From Sulfurospirillum cavolei (lineage in GTDB: Bacteria > Campylobacterota > Campylobacteria > Campylobacterales > Sulfurospirillaceae), in the NCBI RefSeq assembly GCF_001548055.1, contig NZ_AP014724.1, positions 1,984,001-2,048,000 of the forward strand: 64,000 nucleotides of DNA, written 5' to 3'. The notes below the pieces were generated by a model, which saw only the letters and a program-made list of their open reading frames with translations, had not been told where the DNA came from and did not search any database. Every line of letters starts with the position of its first letter. Position 1 is the stretch's first letter. Positions 53,223 through 60,100 of the stretch are shown piece by piece. The position numbers and the translations under genes were made by a program.

Positions 53223-54833
53223 TTACGCGGTTTTAAACTCGGCAAGCGTCGCGCTGAGATTCTCGGATAAACGCGCCAAATGTTCTGCTGCCGAAGCGAT
53301 TTCCTCGACGCTTCTGGCATTGGAGCTTGAAAGAGCGTTAATGGTTTCGATTTTTTGAATAATCACGCTTTGAATACGCTCGACGTTTTGTTTGGACTTC
53401 ACGACCACGCGATCGGTCGCTTCCACGCTTTGCCCCAAAAGCGATACCGCATCTACCGTTTGCGTGCTCACGTTGTTGGAGTAGGTACTGAGCGTTCCGA
53501 TGCGCTCGGCATTATGGTTCATCTGACCGCTAATGTCGCCGATCGCTTGAACGATAACGTTAATCGTTGCATTGGTCTCGATCAAGCTTTTTTGCGTACG
53601 TTCGGCCAGTTTTCGAACCTCATCGGCTACGACGGCAAAACCGCGTCCGTGCTCACCCGCACGTGCGGCTTCAATTGCGGCATTGAGGGCTAGAAGGTTG
53701 GTTTGATCGGCAATATCGCCGATGACGTCTAAGACGCTTTTGACTTGTCCGGCGTCTTGAGAGAGTTGATTGAGTCGATCGTTGATCTGCATTTCGGCTT
53801 GAACCGTTTGCTCTAAATGCCCTAACGTTTCTTGCAATACGGACTGTACTTTCAAAAGACTGTTTTGTGCCGTCGTCGTTACGTTTTTCACGGTCTGAAC
53901 GTCGTCGTTGGTTTCAACGATTTCCCTTGCCACTTTTTGCGCTTCAAAAACCGCCTCTTTAAGAGCACTCGCCTCTTCTTCCGCACGTTTACCGATCTGC
54001 AAACTCGTGCTGGAGAGCTCCTCGGCAACCGAAGCGTTTTCAAGAGCGTTCGTTTTCGCGTTGTTAATCGCGGCGTTAATGTCTGAAAGGAGTTCGTTTT
54101 GCATCTGCGCAATATCGTTCATCTCGTCTTGATTGCCGCTATCGATGCGCGAAACGAGCGATTTGTTCGTACGAATGAACCCGATACCCTCTTTGGTTTT
54201 TTCGATCGATTGATTGATCGAGCGGATAATAAAAAAACAAAGTCCTAACGCAAAGAGCGAAACGGCAACCAACGTGACTTCCGAGAAAATTTTCGTACTG
54301 TCCAAACGTTCAAAATTGGCTTGAAGAACCCCTTCTTCCAGACTGTTCGCATCTTTACTAATACCTTCAAATAAAACGGCAGACTCTTTGGTTAAGCGCG
54401 TTAGCATCGTATACTCTTCCGCGTGTTCTTGGCTAAAATGCGGATCGTTGACTTGCGTGCCGTATTTTTTAAGGATTCCCAAACGCGGAGCATTTAAAGC
54501 ATACCATTTTTGAATATCCGCTTCGAGTTTAATCAATGCTTCTTTATTATGAACCGATAGCAAAATCGTTTTAAGGTACGAAAGGCTCTCTAAAAGCTCT
54601 TTATAATTGCTCTCCAAACTCTTCAATTGTTCTTCTTTCCCCAAGAGTTGAAAACCGCGTAATTCCATCATACAGGTTACAAGCGACGTTTCGGCGTTAG
54701 CGAGTGTCGAAAGGCGAATTGCCGTCATTTTTCCGTCGTTGTTAGACTTAATAATTTGATAACCTAAAATAATAAATCCTACGGTCAGAACAACCAGCAA
54801 GATCACCAATTTGCTTCGAATCGTCGCAAACAT
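53223..54833 (-). CDS. Methyl-accepting chemotaxis protein with helical-bundle sensor
   Basis: 536 residues. Transmembrane helix 1 (~9-29), a periplasmic region (~30-180) that is all-helical with no Cache motif, so a four-helix-bundle (4HB/HBM-like) sensor; transmembrane helix 2 (~185-205); a HAMP-like linker; and a full signalling domain with tip [30 protein letters not shown] and a C-terminal arm of ~145 residues. No C-terminal CheR pentapeptide. Ligand unknown. TAAGGAG precedes the ATG. Confidence 0.92.
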
Positions 54834-54959
54834 CTTTTCTCCTTAGCCCGATAAAATGAGCAATCTTATAATCCTAATACTTAAAATCTGCTTGTTAAAG
54901 GCTCTATACGATGGGGTTTTTACTAATTTGATACGTTATATTTTGAAAGAAATAATCAA

Positions 54960-54991
54960 CAACGAGATACGCAAAAAATGTAATCTCGTTG
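54960..54991 (-). terminator. Hairpin after the DJ-1/PfpI gene
   Basis: CAACGAGAT and ATCTCGTTG, perfect nine-base arms with a 14-base loop, 15 bases beyond the stop at 55006. On the minus strand it is followed by TTGATTATTTCTTT, a loose U-rich tract, consistent with an intrinsic terminator. Confidence 0.5.
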
Positions 54992-55005
54992 CCTTGAAAG
55001 ATATA

Positions 55006-55557
55006 CTATGCGAGCAATAACGCTTCGCGAAGTTCGTCTACGACTCTTTTTGAACGGAGTTTTTCTACCAGCGTAAGTGCAAAGTCCATAGCGGTAGAGG
55101 GACCTTGAGAAGTCGTAACGTTCATACTCTGAACAACTTTTTCCGTCGCATCGTACCCTTTTTGAGGAATGTGGGAGTGAAAATCGGGATAACATGTAAA
55201 GCGTTCTTTTAAAACGCCGGCGGTATACAGTGCATACGGAGCGGCGCATATGGCGGCAATCTCTTTACCTTGCGCGTCAAACGTTTGAAGCCAATGCTGA
55301 ACGGTTGCGTCGGCGGCTAAATTGGTAGCTCCCGGAAGGCCGCCTGGTAAAACGATCATATCGAAATATTCGGGATTTTGTTCGCTTAAAAAAGCATCCG
55401 CAACCACGCTAATTGCGTGCGCACCTTTGACATGTAAGCTTGTATGCAATGAGACCGTTACGACGTTAACGTCGGCTCTACGTAAAATATCGACGAGGGT
55501 AACGGCTTCTATTTCTTCGAAACCTTCGGCTAAGGGAATTAAAACATTTTTGCGCAT
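55006..55557 (-). CDS. DJ-1/PfpI family protein (YajL/ThiJ-like)
   Basis: 183 residues, flavodoxin-like fold. EGFEEIEAVTLVDILRRADV (conserved Glu near 15), VLPGGLPGATNL and AAICAAPYAL with the reactive Cys104 are the DJ-1 signatures; a His follows later in the chain. Family members act as chaperones, deglycase/glyoxalase-type enzymes or oxidative sensors; which applies is open. AGGAG precedes the ATG. The gene contains two core motif copies (55195 and 55433 region). Confidence 0.9.
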   Translation of the reverse strand: MRKNVLIPLAEGFEEIEAVTLVDILRRADVNVVTVSLHTSLHVKGAHAISVVADAFLSEQNPEYFDMIVLPGGLPGATNLAADATVQHWLQTFDAQGKEIAAICAAPYALYTAGVLKERFTCYPDFHSHIPQKGYDATEKVVQSMNVTTSQGPSTAMDFALTLVEKLRSKRVVDELREALLLA

Positions 55558-55640
55558 CTTTTTCTCCTAATGGGTCTTGGGAAAAATTATAGCACGAAAA
55601 GAGGAGGCATAACGCCGATGACGCTATGCCGATGGAGAAG

Positions 55641-56204
55641 TTATTTGACTTTTTCTAAGTATTCGCCGCGTACGGTGTCAACTTTGATGACGTCACCCTC
55701 AACGACGTGGAAAGGTACTTGAACGACCGCGCCGCTCTCAAGCGTTGCCGGTTTTTTACCGCCTTGCGTATCGCCTTTAAAGTTCGGCGGCGTCTCTACG
55801 ATTTTAAGTTCAACAAATTGCGGAGCTTCCACGCTGATGGGTTTGCCGTTGTGATACAACATATCCACGTTCATTCCGTCGATAATCCAATCTGCCGCAT
55901 CGCCGACTTGGTCGTGCGTTAACGCGATTTGCTCGTAACTGACGCTGTCCATAAACTGTAAAAACTCGCCGTCGTCGTATAAAAACTGCATAATTTTATC
56001 TTCCAAGTGAGGCGTTTCGCATTTATCGCCCGCATGAAACGTTTTTTCAATCACTTTGCCGTCTAAAAACGATTTAATTTTGCAACGAACGAACGCCGCG
56101 CCTTTGCCCGGCTTGACGTGTTGGTACTCCACAATTTTGTAAGGAACACCGTTAATTTCGATCTTCAATCCTTTTTTTAAGTCGCCCATAGAGATAGAGG
56201 CCAT
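55641..56204 (-). CDS. efp: Elongation factor P
   Basis: 187 residues. Relieves ribosome stalling at polyproline. Three OB-like domains. The tip loop is [10 protein letters not shown] with Lys34 at the position beta-lysylated in E. coli, so this is the lysine type, not the arginine type rhamnosylated by EarP. The C-terminal YxxR-like EYLEKVK tail is normal. Whether EpmA/EpmB modification enzymes exist is not visible here. AGGAGAATG-type ribosome site. Confidence 0.95.
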
Positions 56205-56424
56205 ACATTCTCCTAATTTTTAGTTTTTGCCATTATAGCGAAAAAAAGCACGACTACAAAATCGTTAATTTTTATACATTATATTGTATATAAATTTCTT
56301 TTTTATGTATTTTTTATTTGTTTTAAAGAATTAAATATCTATTATTTTGATTAAATAATAAATTAAATAGTATGTTTTATATATTTTAATGAATATTTAA
56401 TACGTTAATTTGTATTATAATAAG
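56205..56424. other. Very AT-rich intergenic segment
   Basis: About 160 bases (56255-56424) consist almost only of A and T, the most AT-rich stretch of the window, while neighbours are over 40 percent GC. It contains several TATAAT-like strings, including 56416-56421 only four bases before the HTH gene ATG. It could be a UP-element or H-NS-like-protein target, or the edge of an inserted cassette. No gene seen in it. Confidence 0.6.
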
Positions 56425-56673
56425 ATGAAAACAAGCGATATCATCAATCTTTTGCACAATGCCGTCGAAGCCGAAAATATGGGGAAGAAAATTTCTCAGA
56501 AAAAAATGGCGGAAACATGCGGCATTTCCATGCGCACCTATCAGGAGTGGAGACTCGGAAGTAGCGCGCCCCTTGGGATTCCCGTCGTATTTAATATGCT
56601 CGGGATGCTAAAGGATGAAGATATTATTAGACTGGTTCGGAAAATTAACGACGGGCAAAAAGGAACGGTATGA
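56425..56673 (+). CDS. Small HTH (Xre-like) DNA-binding protein
   Basis: 82 residues. The segment KKISQKKMAETCGISMRTYQEWRLGSSAPLG is a helix-turn-helix of the Cro/Xre kind, with a short N-terminal helix and a C-terminal helical tail. No other domain. The ATG at 56425 follows an AT-rich region; a TTG at 56410 is in frame. Ribosome site is poor (AATAAG). It overlaps the next small gene by four bases. Such a small regulator plus small basic protein could be a toxin-antitoxin-like or prophage-remnant pair, but no such family is recognised. Confidence 0.65.
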   Translation: MKTSDIINLLHNAVEAENMGKKISQKKMAETCGISMRTYQEWRLGSSAPLGIPVVFNMLGMLKDEDIIRLVRKINDGQKGTV

Positions 56674-56837
56674 CAAACTTGACGGTCAGCGAGAAAGTGG
56701 CTCTTGAAGAAGTATTTGAATGTTTACGCGATACGCGTTGCCGTAAAATCGGACTCATGAATAAACGACTGTTCGTCTATCGCCTTTTGCGCCTGATTGC
56801 CTCGACACGAAAAAGAGTCTTACATGTAAAACGCTAA
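56670..56837 (+). CDS. Small basic 55-residue protein, unknown
   Basis: Starts ATG at 56670, overlapping the HTH gene stop (ATGA), with AAGGAA upstream. Residues 1-20 are acidic and helical (VSEKVALEEVFECLRD), residues 21-55 strongly basic (RLFVYRLLRLIASTRKR) and amphipathic. It has two cysteines (18, 24). The last codons (VLHVKR and stop) lie inside the 56819-56857 stem-loop, so the C-terminus is contributed by the repeat. No family recognised; the overlap and ribosome site make it a credible gene. Confidence 0.55.
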   Translation: MTNLTVSEKVALEEVFECLRDTRCRKIGLMNKRLFVYRLLRLIASTRKRVLHVKR

Positions 56838-56857
56838 AATCCCGTTTTACATGTAAG
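56819..56857. terminator. 15-bp perfect stem-loop carrying two TTACATGTAA units
   Basis: CTTACATGTAAAACG (56819-56833) and its exact complement (56843-56857) enclose a nine-base loop. It lies between the convergent 55-residue ORF, whose stop is in the loop edge, and the RND gene, whose stop is three bases away. Probable bidirectional terminator. TTACATGTAA copies at 56820 and 56847. Confidence 0.7.
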
Positions 56858-56859
56858 CA

Positions 56860-58518
56860 TTAAAGAGAATTCGTATTATCCAATAAAACCGGAACGACGA
56901 TCAACGAAGCGACGACAGCCGCAATCGTTCCGAAAATCAACGCAACGCCCAATCCACCGAAAATCGGATCCGCCGCCAGCAACGTACTCGCCAAAATAAT
57001 CGCCGCCGCTGTGAGCATGATCGGTTTGGCACGCGTAGCACTTGCATGGGCGATCGCCTCTTTTTTTGCCATACCGTGTGCGATCATCGCTTGCGAAAAA
57101 TCGATCAGCAACAATGCGTTACGCGAACTAATCCCCATCAACGAAATAAAACCTATTAACGACGTCGCCGTTAAGAAGAACGTCCCGTGCGAAAAGAGAT
57201 CCATAATCCAATGCCCGACGATCACGCCGATAATGGAAAGAAAACTCCCTAAAAGTACGATTCCCGAAAGCGCAAAGCTTTTATAATACACGACCATCAG
57301 CAAAAAGATTAAAACCAATGCCGCGATAAACGCACCGCCTAAATCGCGAAACGTATCCATCGTCACTTTCATTTCCCCGTCCCACACCAGATCGTAAATC
57401 TCGCCGCTTTGCTTATCCTTAAGCCGTAAATCGAACAGGTGTGTACCGCTAATGTCGTAACGCGCTTGAAAATGTTCTTTGATCGCACTTCGCGCTTGTA
57501 AAAGCGGATAGACTTGCGACACCAAATCCGCTTCCGCGACGATACTGACCATTTTTTGAAGATTTTTCGACAAAATCGTCGGCGTAGAGAGCACTTCTTC
57601 AACGCGAACGACTTCACTCAAAGGCACGCTCAAGCCCTCATCGTTCATCAGCACTAAAGATGCGAGTTTCGCACTTAACGCCTCTTTGCTCATCTTCTCT
57701 AAGCTTTTGGACGCATCGCTAAAAACAAGAAAAAGCGGGATTTGCGTCGGAGAATCGGAACGATTTTTATACGTCACGTTCATACCTTCAAAGCCCAAAT
57801 AAAGCAAACGGTGAATCCGCTCGATGCTCAGTTTCGCACGTGCAGCTTTGTCATGGTCGATTCGAAGCGAGAGTTTAGGGTAAATATCGTCATGCATAAT
57901 ATCCACGTCTTTGAGATCGCTCGTCTTCGCCAAAATCGTCTTAATCTCTTCGGCAAGCGCGCTTAAACGCTCGGTATTTTCGCCGTAAAGCTCAACGACG
58001 ATCGCCGCTTGCGTCGGAGGCCCTGCGGGTTGTTCGACCATCTTAATCGACGTTTGCGCTACCAAAGGCTCACAGGTACGTTGAATCGCTCCGCGTAAAC
58101 GATGCACCATCATGTAAGACTTTTCCTCTCTTTGGTGCGTATCGGTCAAATTGACCACAATCTCGCTGACATGTTCGCCGTTTTTAAAGCTCGATCCTTT
58201 GACAAGACCGGCATAATCCAACGGCGAGCCCATGCCGTTAAAAACTTCGATATCCGTAATCTCTTTTTCCTTTTGCAAAATCGAAACGATGCATTGATTG
58301 ACGTTTTGCGTCTGCACGTACGAACTCCCGTTGGGCAAATCGACGTAGATCGAAAAAGTATTGGTACTTTTCCCCGGTAGCATTTTTGCCAAAACGATTT
58401 TACTCGGAAACATCAACACCGAGAGGATAAATGCCAATAACGTCAACACCAGCACCAAACGTTTTTTTCGAGGCACTAGCAAGATACCGTAAACAAACTG
58501 CTCAAAGCGTCGCATCAT
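56860..58518 (-). CDS. RND efflux permease, C-terminal half-protein
   Basis: 552 residues corresponding to TM7-TM12 and the second porter loop of an RND pump. TM7 near 18-40 is followed by KMLPGKSTNTFSIYVDLPNGSSY, the porter subdomains (~60-370), then TM8-12 with SLIGFISLMGISSRNALLLIDF and a final IFGTIAAVVASLIVVPVLL. The start is ATGATG at 58518/58515 with GAAGGGG seven bases upstream and a 17-base overlap with the N-half gene. A TAG at 58533-58531 closes this frame upstream. An intact pump is one chain of ~1030 residues, so this is a split permease. Confidence 0.85.
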   Translation of the reverse strand: MMRRFEQFVYGILLVPRKKRLVLVLTLLAFILSVLMFPSKIVLAKMLPGKSTNTFSIYVDLPNGSSYVQTQNVNQCIVSILQKEKEITDIEVFNGMGSPLDYAGLVKGSSFKNGEHVSEIVVNLTDTHQREEKSYMMVHRLRGAIQRTCEPLVAQTSIKMVEQPAGPPTQAAIVVELYGENTERLSALAEEIKTILAKTSDLKDVDIMHDDIYPKLSLRIDHDKAARAKLSIERIHRLLYLGFEGMNVTYKNRSDSPTQIPLFLVFSDASKSLEKMSKEALSAKLASLVLMNDEGLSVPLSEVVRVEEVLSTPTILSKNLQKMVSIVAEADLVSQVYPLLQARSAIKEHFQARYDISGTHLFDLRLKDKQSGEIYDLVWDGEMKVTMDTFRDLGGAFIAALVLIFLLMVVYYKSFALSGIVLLGSFLSIIGVIVGHWIMDLFSHGTFFLTATSLIGFISLMGISSRNALLLIDFSQAMIAHGMAKKEAIAHASATRAKPIMLTAAAIILASTLLAADPIFGGLGVALIFGTIAAVVASLIVVPVLLDNTNSL

Positions 58519-60100
58519 GATTTGCCCCTTCTATCACCTCTTTTTTCTTCAAAAATCTACGCGCTAAAAAAGGTGTAAAGATATAAGCGATTAAGAGCGA
58601 AGCACTCATGGCAACGGGCACGTTCAGCGGTATGGGCTTCATAAACTCTCCCATCATCTGCCCGACAAACGCCATCGGAACCATCGTCAAAATAATCGCA
58701 ATCGTCGCTAAATTGGTCGGTGCTCCGATCTCGTCGGTCGCTTCCACCAACAGATCGTCCATCGGTTTGTCTTTCGCGAATTTATCGTGCAAATGGCGAT
58801 GGATGTTTTCGATGACGACGATCACGTCGTCAACCAAAAGTCCAAGACTCAGTAAAAAGGCAAAAAGCGTAATCCGATTGATGGTTTGACCGCTGACGTA
58901 TGCGATAAAAATCGTAATCGACAAAATTGCCGGAACCGTCAAAATGACGATAAGCCCTTCCCTCCAGCCCAAAATAAAAATGAGCAAAAAAGCGATGATC
59001 ACGATAGAGATAAACAAGTGAAACACCAACTCGTTAACCGCGTCGTTGGCACGTTCTCCGTAATTTCGAGTTAACGTATAACCGATGCCCTCTTTGTCCA
59101 ACATAGGTTTTTGCGCTTCAAGACGCGCTAAAACGTCTTTGGCAATCAACACGGCGTTGGAACCTTTGAGTTTGGAAACGCTTAGCGTCACTTGTTCTTG
59201 CAGCGGGCTTAACGTCCCGTCACTTTGCCTAACGCTAATCAAGGCACTTTTTTTATTTTGAACGTCATATCCTAAGCCAACCGTTGCCACGTCTTTGAGG
59301 TAAATCGCCGAAGCCCCGTAGTGTGCAACGATCAGGTTTTGAATATCTTCGACATTTTCTAAGACGTTTTTAACGCCGAAAACGACGAGCTTGCTATCTG
59401 TCGTATGGTTTGTCACTTCCGGTAAACGCATGCTAAGCCCGTTAAGTGCGCCGACGATTTGCTCCATGCTCAAGCGATAACCCGCCAATTTACGCAAATC
59501 GACTTCAATGTTAAATTGCTCTTTATGTTCGCCTTTAATCTCGGTTTTAGCGACGTTAGGGACGTCGCCCAAACCGTTGCGGATCGCTTCGACTTTTTGA
59601 TACAAACGTACAGGATCGATTTTGTGTCCCGCTTTGGCATAAAACGCAACCGATAAAATCGGAATATCGATGTCGATGTCTAAGGGTCTCACCAACGGAG
59701 AAGAAGCACCGCTTGGAAGCTGATCAAGGTTTTGCATCACTTTATCGTAGAGTTTGAGATTGGAAGCTTCACGGTTTTCTCCGATATAGTACATTACGTT
59801 GACGATACCCACGTTGTCGCTGGCGATACCGTATATATGCTCGACGCCTTTGATCTCTTTAATGCGTCGCTCCAAAGGGCGAACGACGACTTGCTCGACT
59901 TCCGCGGCACTTGCACCCGGAAGCGTTACGATCACGACGCCGCCGCTAATCGATATTTGAGGGTCTTCTTCTCTGGGCATCATCAAAAGAGCGATAATGC
60001 CTAAAACGATCAGCGTAATGCCCAAAATCATCGTCAGCGGATTGTGTAAAAAAAGGCGCGCCAAAAAACCGGCAAGGTATTTTTCTTTGTACGTACGCAT
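58502..60100 (-). CDS. RND efflux permease, N-terminal half-protein
   Basis: 532 residues: TM1 (~20-42), first porter loop (MMPREEDPQISISGGVVIVTLPGASAAEVEQVV onward), and TM2-TM6 with GLLVDDVIVVIENIHRH, which holds the intramembrane Asp-Asp proton relay, and ATDEIGAPTNLATIAIILTMVPMAF. It ends at the cytoplasmic linker after TM6 (RRFLKKKEVIEGANHDATL). Start at ATG 60100, coupled to the adaptor gene. Together with the next ORF it equals one full RND permease; the proton relay is entirely in this half. Confidence 0.87.
   Translation of the reverse strand: MRTYKEKYLAGFLARLFLHNPLTMILGITLIVLGIIALLMMPREEDPQISISGGVVIVTLPGASAAEVEQVVVRPLERRIKEIKGVEHIYGIASDNVGIVNVMYYIGENREASNLKLYDKVMQNLDQLPSGASSPLVRPLDIDIDIPILSVAFYAKAGHKIDPVRLYQKVEAIRNGLGDVPNVAKTEIKGEHKEQFNIEVDLRKLAGYRLSMEQIVGALNGLSMRLPEVTNHTTDSKLVVFGVKNVLENVEDIQNLIVAHYGASAIYLKDVATVGLGYDVQNKKSALISVRQSDGTLSPLQEQVTLSVSKLKGSNAVLIAKDVLARLEAQKPMLDKEGIGYTLTRNYGERANDAVNELVFHLFISIVIIAFLLIFILGWREGLIVILTVPAILSITIFIAYVSGQTINRITLFAFLLSLGLLVDDVIVVIENIHRHLHDKFAKDKPMDDLLVEATDEIGAPTNLATIAIILTMVPMAFVGQMMGEFMKPIPLNVPVAMSASLLIAYIFTPFLARRFLKKKEVIEGANHDATL

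Follow-up and report, generated by a model that had tools for sequence, protein, structure and literature searches.

A conserved HTH regulator and small-protein gene pair in Sulfurospirillum and related Campylobacterales, with a predicted leaderless transcript and helically phased candidate operators

The window, by which we mean the whole 64,000-nt stretch of Sulfurospirillum cavolei DNA that was analysed (contig NZ_AP014724.1, positions 1,984,001 to 2,048,000), contains two small overlapping genes set between efp and an efflux gene. The order is efp (55641-56204, minus strand), an AT-rich leader, a gene for a helix-turn-helix (HTH) protein, an ORF of 55 aa and an AcrB-family RND gene (56860-58518, minus strand). 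The flanking genes were identified by Pfam as EF-P on one side and an AcrB-family RND transporter on the other. The features are as follows.

56205-56424, no strand: AT-rich leader with the candidate operator array, between efp and the HTH gene (from GC windows, alignments and site scoring)
56232-56237, minus strand: TATAAT, a candidate -10 box for efp some 36 bp away from the distal operator (from the sequence; presumed role)
56273-56290, no strand: putative distal operator at -152, exact TATAC-N8-GTATA, 10/10, 105 bp from the proximal position
56357-56374, no strand: candidate operator at -68, AATAAATTAAATAGTATG, 7/10, the second-best-scoring position in the efp-linked set
56378-56395, no strand: proximal candidate operator at -47, TATATATTTTAATGAATA, 8/10, at the -35 region, conserved across families
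56399-56416, no strand: candidate operator at -26, AATACGTTAATTTGTATT, 8/10, overlapping the -10 box, in the 21-bp register
56413-56418, plus strand: predicted -10 box TATTAT, 6 nt before the HTH ATG, its aligned position conserved in relatives
56425-56673, plus strand: HTH (Xre/Cro-like) regulator gene, 82 aa, predicted leaderless (from the ORF, homologues, HTH_3, model and dN/dS)
56670-56837, plus strand: gene for the small basic protein, 55 aa, overlapping the HTH gene by ATGA (from the ORF, conservation, dN/dS and predicted fold)
56819-56857, no strand: perfect inverted repeat, with arms of 15 bp and a loop of 9 nt, where the small ORF ends (from the sequence)

The AT-rich stretch ahead of two overlapping small genes, first remarked on in the first-pass annotation, is real. 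The leader (56200-56399) has a GC content of 0.165 against about 0.41-0.55 for efp and the efflux gene in 200-base windows, so the sharp break in composition claimed for the whole cassette stands for the leader. It does not stand for the HTH gene and the small ORF, whose GC content of 0.41-0.47 is ordinary; the AT-richness is confined to the leader. As an AT-rich leader recurs in all seven family sets examined (mean GC 0.14-0.25 per set over 200 nt), the low GC is part of the unit and no sign of foreign DNA. No integrase, transposase or repeats were recognised among the ORFs of 54500-58500, which were read by eye with the neighbours identified by Pfam.

The inverted repeat, CTTACATGTAAAACG/CGTTTTACATGTAAG, overlaps the final codons of the small ORF and is likely to be a bidirectional terminator between convergent transcripts; related repeats are found in most of the genus members displayed. 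The RND transporter beyond it (56860-60100, minus strand) is itself divided into two overlapping ORFs of 532 and 552 aa. Two RND ORFs of similar size occur at six of the seven relatives' loci checked, one complete genome included, and the split is possibly natural; at one locus in a sister genus (L077) the RND gene is a single frame of 1076 aa.

The HTH protein is a Cro/Xre-type regulator, as had been supposed. HTH_3 is matched by 49 of 49 aligned members of its family at E <= 0.1, although the window protein alone scores under the Pfam cut-off. Its predicted structure (AlphaFold, pLDDT 90.2) has five helices, and its fold neighbours are generic Xre proteins only, including HigA antitoxins, DdrO, 434 Cro and P22 C2, with VIA Z of about 5 across 50-64 residues. 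C.Kpn2I is a weak Foldseek match (E 0.38), and no other controller (C) protein is among the fold matches listed. The amino-acid sequence is strongly conserved in alignment; the efp-linked alignments include 20 of 24 loci, and the remaining loci were read separately. Proteins 77-100% identical to that of the window come from 14 named loci, recorded as Sulfurospirillum, Sulfurospirillaceae or vaguer metagenome-assembled genomes. The median dN/dS of the HTH gene is 0.044 (53 of 66 pairs usable, the rest saturated or unusable), in a sample of 13 chosen loci limited to pairs of the same length.

The partner had been called basic and novel. The small protein has a net charge of +9 (K+R-D-E), and the 55-aa sequence has no match to any family, toxin families included, in Pfam, NCBIfam, PHROGs or PADLOC. 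A sequence comparison with the PDB gave nothing usable (best E 1.7). Its model consists of two helices (pLDDT 73.9, pTM 0.33) and found no usable fold match with Foldseek, the single match being at E 10. Strong conservation in the alignment covers the first 20 residues, which carry the motif L-[ST]-x-x-E-[RK]-x-x-L-x-x-x-F; the C-terminal part varies widely, and the proteins of relatives range from about 38 to 84 aa. The median dN/dS in the same sample is 0.090 (23 of 34 pairs usable, the others again saturated or unusable), with 0.060 for the first 21 codons and 0.118 for the remainder. These low values make it very likely that the small ORF is genuine. It is under purifying selection and conserved in close relatives, the opposite of what would have counted against the first-pass annotation.

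Within the genus Sulfurospirillum, 23 of 24 genomes have an efp-type copy of both genes, the exception (G030) being a genome that is 77% complete. The RND gene is present at all 23 of these loci and efp at 20; the other three stop at a contig edge. Across the family, the HTH protein in either of its two copies occurs in 41 of 44 genomes and the small protein, searched with a single sequence, in 32 of 44. The second copy is a paralogous pair, found in the same genome at 1090754, directly behind rpsO. Its HTH protein is 57% identical to that of the window, and a related ORF of 57 aa follows with an identical overlap. A search of a sample of the order Campylobacterales with alignments of both copies found the HTH protein in 93 of 248 genomes (24 of 72 genera) and the small ORF in 70 of 248 (16 of 72 genera). 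The 123 HTH rows recovered are 117 distinct loci, one locus at a contig edge (L030) being left out as it has no start. A motif-bearing small ORF follows at 110 of the 117, most commonly with a 4-nt overlap (60 of 110). A small ORF was accepted here by an L/I-[ST]-...-[ED]-[RK] motif and a start at most 60 nt from the HTH stop, a rule that favours motif-bearing ORFs.

The neighbours of the pair vary from family to family, as identified by Pfam at one locus of each. The efp-linked pair was seen in family f1 only. Several of the loci listed for family f16 have HU after the pair, and family f3 has a cyclophilin; in family f6, grpE-dnaK comes next in four of the five loci listed. Four f6 loci (L124, L125, L127 and L151) place the pair immediately ahead of grpE-dnaK, an adjacency that hints at a possible link to heat-shock control. 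Three f1 loci (L148, L149 and L153) have rpsO upstream, and grpE and dnaK downstream of an intervening gene that we take to be hrcA-like, which has no Pfam match at 1e-5. We do not claim control of heat-shock genes for the canonical unit: the gene order varies by family, and genes other than grpE and dnaK lie downstream of the rpsO-linked pair in the window's own genome.

The small ORF can also be found alone. In two sister genera (g4 and g5), all six loci read (L060-L065) have the small ORF beside efp and no HTH gene, and most genomes with such a locus keep the rpsO-linked HTH copy. At one f3 locus (L150), the small ORF stands before a PPIase-like gene in a genome (G064) that has no HTH match at E <= 1e-5.

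Given the fixed position in the genus and the paralogue found across the order, the comparison of genomes identifies the pair as an old, vertically inherited chromosomal unit. Conservation, gene order and overlap are read directly from that comparison. Most simply, the window (efp-linked) copy would be a duplicate of the rpsO-linked unit, a direction that we infer.

The promoter of the HTH gene appears to lie immediately against its start codon. The first-pass annotation placed a TATAAT four bases before the HTH ATG; the distance is actually three (56416-56421). This hexamer overlaps the TATTAT at 56413-56418 and matches the -10 consensus better, and it is the TATTAT whose position is conserved. 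Among 104 distinct upstream sequences of 60 nt, the best -10 hexamer lies 6-7 nt before the HTH ATG in 90, and a control region shifted 70 nt upstream shows no preferred -10 spacing. A Shine-Dalgarno (SD) core precedes only 1 of 116 distinct HTH genes, compared with 106 of 110 small ORFs; counted per row with repeats kept, the figures are 1 of 122 and 112 of 116. The prediction is therefore that the HTH transcript is leaderless, starting at its own ATG, and that the small ORF is translated from its own ribosome-binding site. The earlier suggestion of a leaderless HTH transcript is thus supported, as a prediction, by the -10 spacing and the missing SD across relatives. It extends to six of the seven sets examined, the exception being family f9, which is without the 6-7-nt spacing.

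The leader contains an 18-bp palindrome, TATAC-N8-GTATA. Exact half-sites, searched with spacers of 4 to 12, occur in 15 of 21 efp-linked rows, 28 of 36 rpsO-linked, 9 of 13 in f10, 11 of 25 in f16, 3 of 5 in f9, 4 of 12 in f6 and 0 of 7 in f3, against shuffle means below 0.6 per set. The spacer is eight in 67 rows, seven in two and ten in three, and other lengths from 3 to 15 are absent. The inverse order, GTATA-N3-TATAC, is present in 13 rows, as expected where neighbouring 18-bp sites stand 21 bp apart.

Beyond -65, sites with at least 9 of the 10 half-site letters number 114 in 113 distinct upstream sequences, compared with 5.3 expected from dinucleotide shuffles. The best -10 out of four positions fixed the register, except in f9, where the family's own proximal site was used. 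In that register, 111 of the 114 strong sites lie within 1 bp of 21, 42, 63, 84, 105 or 126 bp, and the exceptions are at 61 (one) and 123 (two). The related genomes behind the 114 sites are not independent, and collapsing them to 24 genus-by-locus units leaves at least one strong site in 22. The multiple varies with the genus: 84 bp in f10.g14, 104-105 bp in f16.g20 and the efp-linked set, 125-126 bp in f6 and most of the rpsO-linked set, and 42 bp in f9. Most loci have one to three strong sites, the intermediate ones being weak. The weaker in-phase positions score higher than out-of-phase positions in five of six sets (5.97 against 3.57, 4.60 against 3.51, 4.23 against 3.37, 4.95 against 3.58 and 5.43 against 3.49). 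In f3 the intermediate in-phase positions score lower (2.68 against 3.49), and a strong distal site is present in three of seven upstream sequences.

The loci of g4 and g5 with the small ORF alone retain much of this arrangement, the promoter and distal palindrome leading directly into the small ORF. A strong distal palindrome is present at all six, five in register with the assigned -10 and the sixth 3 bp off. The small ORF has its SD, and many of these loci have a weak proximal position (1 to 9 of 10). No array was found at the f3 locus with the small ORF alone (L150). Since the g4 and g5 loci keep both the distal palindrome and the SD, it seems to be the small gene on which the control acts, and the HTH protein from the rpsO-linked copy could exert that control in trans.

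Within genomes the palindrome is distinguished by its placement. The exact sequence is found at three places in the 2.7-Mb genome, two of which are the leaders of the two HTH copies. The third, at 2609330, is apparently unrelated, in a region that we take to be amino-acid-ABC-transporter-like, and looks like chance. In the 24 genus genomes, 34 of 65 sites are found upstream of an HTH copy (46 copies in all), no more than 200 bp away. Among the other 31, eight are a single repeated sequence in one genome (G014), where scattered copies of TATACCTCCTAGCGTATA or its complement probably belong to a repeated or mobile element. Across these 24 genomes the palindrome is no more frequent than its reversed control (65 sites against 70); its placement alone is special. 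A wider regulon defined by the proximal element TTTATGTATAATTAA was considered and rejected. This element has one exact match in the genome and one with a single mismatch, the latter probably due to chance and lying between genes that we presume to be feoA-like and carbon-nitrogen-hydrolase-like; allowing up to two mismatches gives 21 sites against 15 in the reversed control.

More distant relatives of the HTH protein connect it with restriction-modification (R-M). Two of them, L131 and L143, are 38 and 35% identical to the window protein, with E of about 1e-20 in the search with the first alignment. L131 (G236) directly precedes a C5 methylase and a HaeII-like restriction enzyme, and L143 (G018) and L142 (G182) each precede a D12 methylase. 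In Burkholderiaceae relatives, the HTH gene is followed either by an Eco57I-type methylase accompanied by a BsuBI/PstI-type enzyme or by an annotated SAM-dependent methyltransferase. Upstream of the G018 copy the palindrome is exact and lies at -122; upstream of the G236 copy it scores 9/10 and lies at -136. Neither is in the 21-bp register, and no strong palindrome was found upstream of the R-M-linked relatives L142, L156 and L157. When seven proteins were tested against the PADLOC 'Control_protein' model, only two R-M-linked members matched (E 0.007 and 0.009). No R-M genes lie beside the window copy, and none were recognised among the neighbours listed for the rpsO-, grpE-, HU- and PPIase-linked copies.

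C proteins such as C.PvuII and C.Kpn2I are likewise small Xre/HTH proteins, that of the window having 82 aa, and the resemblance extends to the organization of the operon. According to a passage on pvuII (PMC2997769), the C-dependent transcript is leaderless from the C initiator codon, the next gene overlaps and has an obvious ribosome-binding site, and the two overlapping genes are translated independently. The pair described here has the same layout, with the regulator predicted leaderless, and the independence of translation in pvuII means that overlap alone is no proof of translational coupling. As summarized in part of PMC6237814, C-protein dimers occupy pairs of sites that lie upstream of the promoter and extend partly into it. 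There are also differences. The half-site here is TATAC/GTATA, whereas the C-box core is given as AGTC in a section of PMC5282649; the sites here are spread over 84-126 bp in 21-bp steps, whereas C proteins use two adjacent dimer sites. The same section reports other types of C box in Mollicutes, including one that has three repeats, so that both the core and the number of repeats can vary. Finally, the gene downstream in C-protein operons is the restriction enzyme, and here it is the small basic protein. The chromosomal unit is thus similar to an R-M controller operon whose enzyme has been replaced by a small basic protein.

We consider it probable, from the comparisons above, that the pair forms a vertically inherited chromosomal operon of a controller-protein-like kind, which regulates itself through the HTH protein acting on phased operators and has the small protein as its output. 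HTH dimers would probably bind the 18-bp TATAC-N8-GTATA palindromes along the leader of their own gene. As sites at multiples of 21 bp are separated by multiples of two helical turns, the dimers would lie on one face of the DNA and may fill the array cooperatively. Occupancy of the -47 site at the -35 region and the -26 site at the -10 region would set or shut off the HTH promoter. The autoregulation would be negative, perhaps after a positive phase. The earlier suggestion that the HTH protein could repress itself agrees, as far as sequence can tell, with the palindromes at its own promoter. The transcript would start at the HTH ATG, with the small ORF served by its own ribosome-binding site. 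Most likely the circuit has the small basic protein as its output, a role that the restriction enzyme plays in C-protein operons; that analogy and the retention of the small ORF without the HTH gene suggest it. As the efp promoter would lie on the far side of the array, efp expression could also be affected.

The small protein could instead be a modulator of the HTH protein, a corepressor or antagonist of the SinI/SinR kind through which the circuit reads a signal. We regard this as a tentative possibility. The two genes overlap and are closely co-conserved, and in SinR and SinI, too, an HTH regulator is paired with a protein of about 55 aa, although the gene order and overlap of sinI and sinR differ from those of the pair here. 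The reported length of SinI, 57 aa (in an excerpt of PMC5864091), is near that of the small protein. SinI and SinR, however, share conserved interface residues, as described in part of PMC3163267, and no such sequence relation was detected here. A profile comparison of the small protein with the HTH protein gave no similarity (E 0.074 over 15 columns), which speaks against a SinI-like mimicry of the HTH protein. The small protein also persists without a linked HTH gene, although the rpsO copy could act on it in trans.

It is unlikely that a nucleoid protein simply binds the leader as DNA that is curved or rich in promoters, with the 21-bp spacing a consequence of curvature. Helical phasing is a property of curved DNA as well, so that the spacing alone would fit this explanation, as would the very low GC of all sets. 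What recurs, however, is one specific palindrome whose spacer is fixed at 8 bp; it is rare in the genome and situated at HTH genes.

A toxin-antitoxin-like pair had been suggested at the outset. A type II toxin-antitoxin system, in which the HTH protein would be both antitoxin and operon repressor and the small basic protein the toxin, now appears very unlikely. The overlapping two-gene operon, the probable autoregulation by the HTH protein and the HigA antitoxins among its fold neighbours would all be consistent with it. The likeness to HigA-type antitoxins, as to Xre repressors such as DdrO, 434 Cro and P22 C2, is generic for the HTH fold, though, and HigA-type antitoxins have a toxin partner whereas the small protein belongs to no toxin family in the four collections searched. 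The wide variation of its C-terminal part also tells against such a role, and the inheritance of the pair is vertical and syntenic (23 of 24 genus genomes at the same locus, with the rpsO paralogue spread through the order) rather than patchy or mobile. Both sister genera keep the small ORF beside efp without its linked HTH gene, though the rpsO-linked HTH copy remains, and G064 keeps the small ORF with no HTH match at all at the threshold used.

The other early suggestion, the remnant of a mobile element, has the AT-rich break in its favour, as well as the distant HTH relatives in R-M loci, a number of which lie on plasmids classed as conjugative, but is scarcely credible given the constant efp/RND position throughout the genus and the rpsO paralogue through the order, the low dN/dS, a phage search that gave one partial match only (E 0.05, 38% of the query) and the lack of any HTH relative in the viral contigs.

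The self-regulating, controller-like operon is thus composed of parts of a known kind, an Xre autoregulator in a controller-like arrangement. What is new, as far as the literature searched shows, is a widely kept leaderless design with operators in 21-bp steps; no study of the HTH/small-ORF pair was among the matches listed from open-licence PMC papers. In the Campylobacter jejuni group, leaderless mRNAs have the same -10 directly before the ATG and no ribosome-binding site. They are reported to be poorly conserved: of 23 genes compared, 1 is leaderless in every species that possesses it (from a portion of PMC3847290). The HTH gene, in contrast, keeps its leaderless prediction in six of the seven sets, within a group reported to be poor in such conservation.

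What appeared to be an AT-rich oddity is therefore better seen as a compact regulatory design, open to testing, which several families of one order have retained: a predicted leaderless HTH gene, an overlapping small partner gene and candidate operators quantised by two helical turns. The placement of the distal strong site at 84, 105 or 126 bp, depending on the family, amounts to a natural experiment in helical phasing. A further and rather doubtful reading is that the operon is a former R-M controller circuit that lost its R-M genes and became resident in Campylobacterales, leaderless and autoregulated, with the small basic protein replacing the enzyme and with an enlarged phased array. As two R-M-linked relatives carry the same palindrome (exact in G018, 9/10 in G236), the resident HTH protein could then govern incoming R-M systems of that type and, if this is true, could influence which of them establish. 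Apart from this reading, the pair offers a link from the controllers of restriction-modification to ordinary chromosomal regulation.
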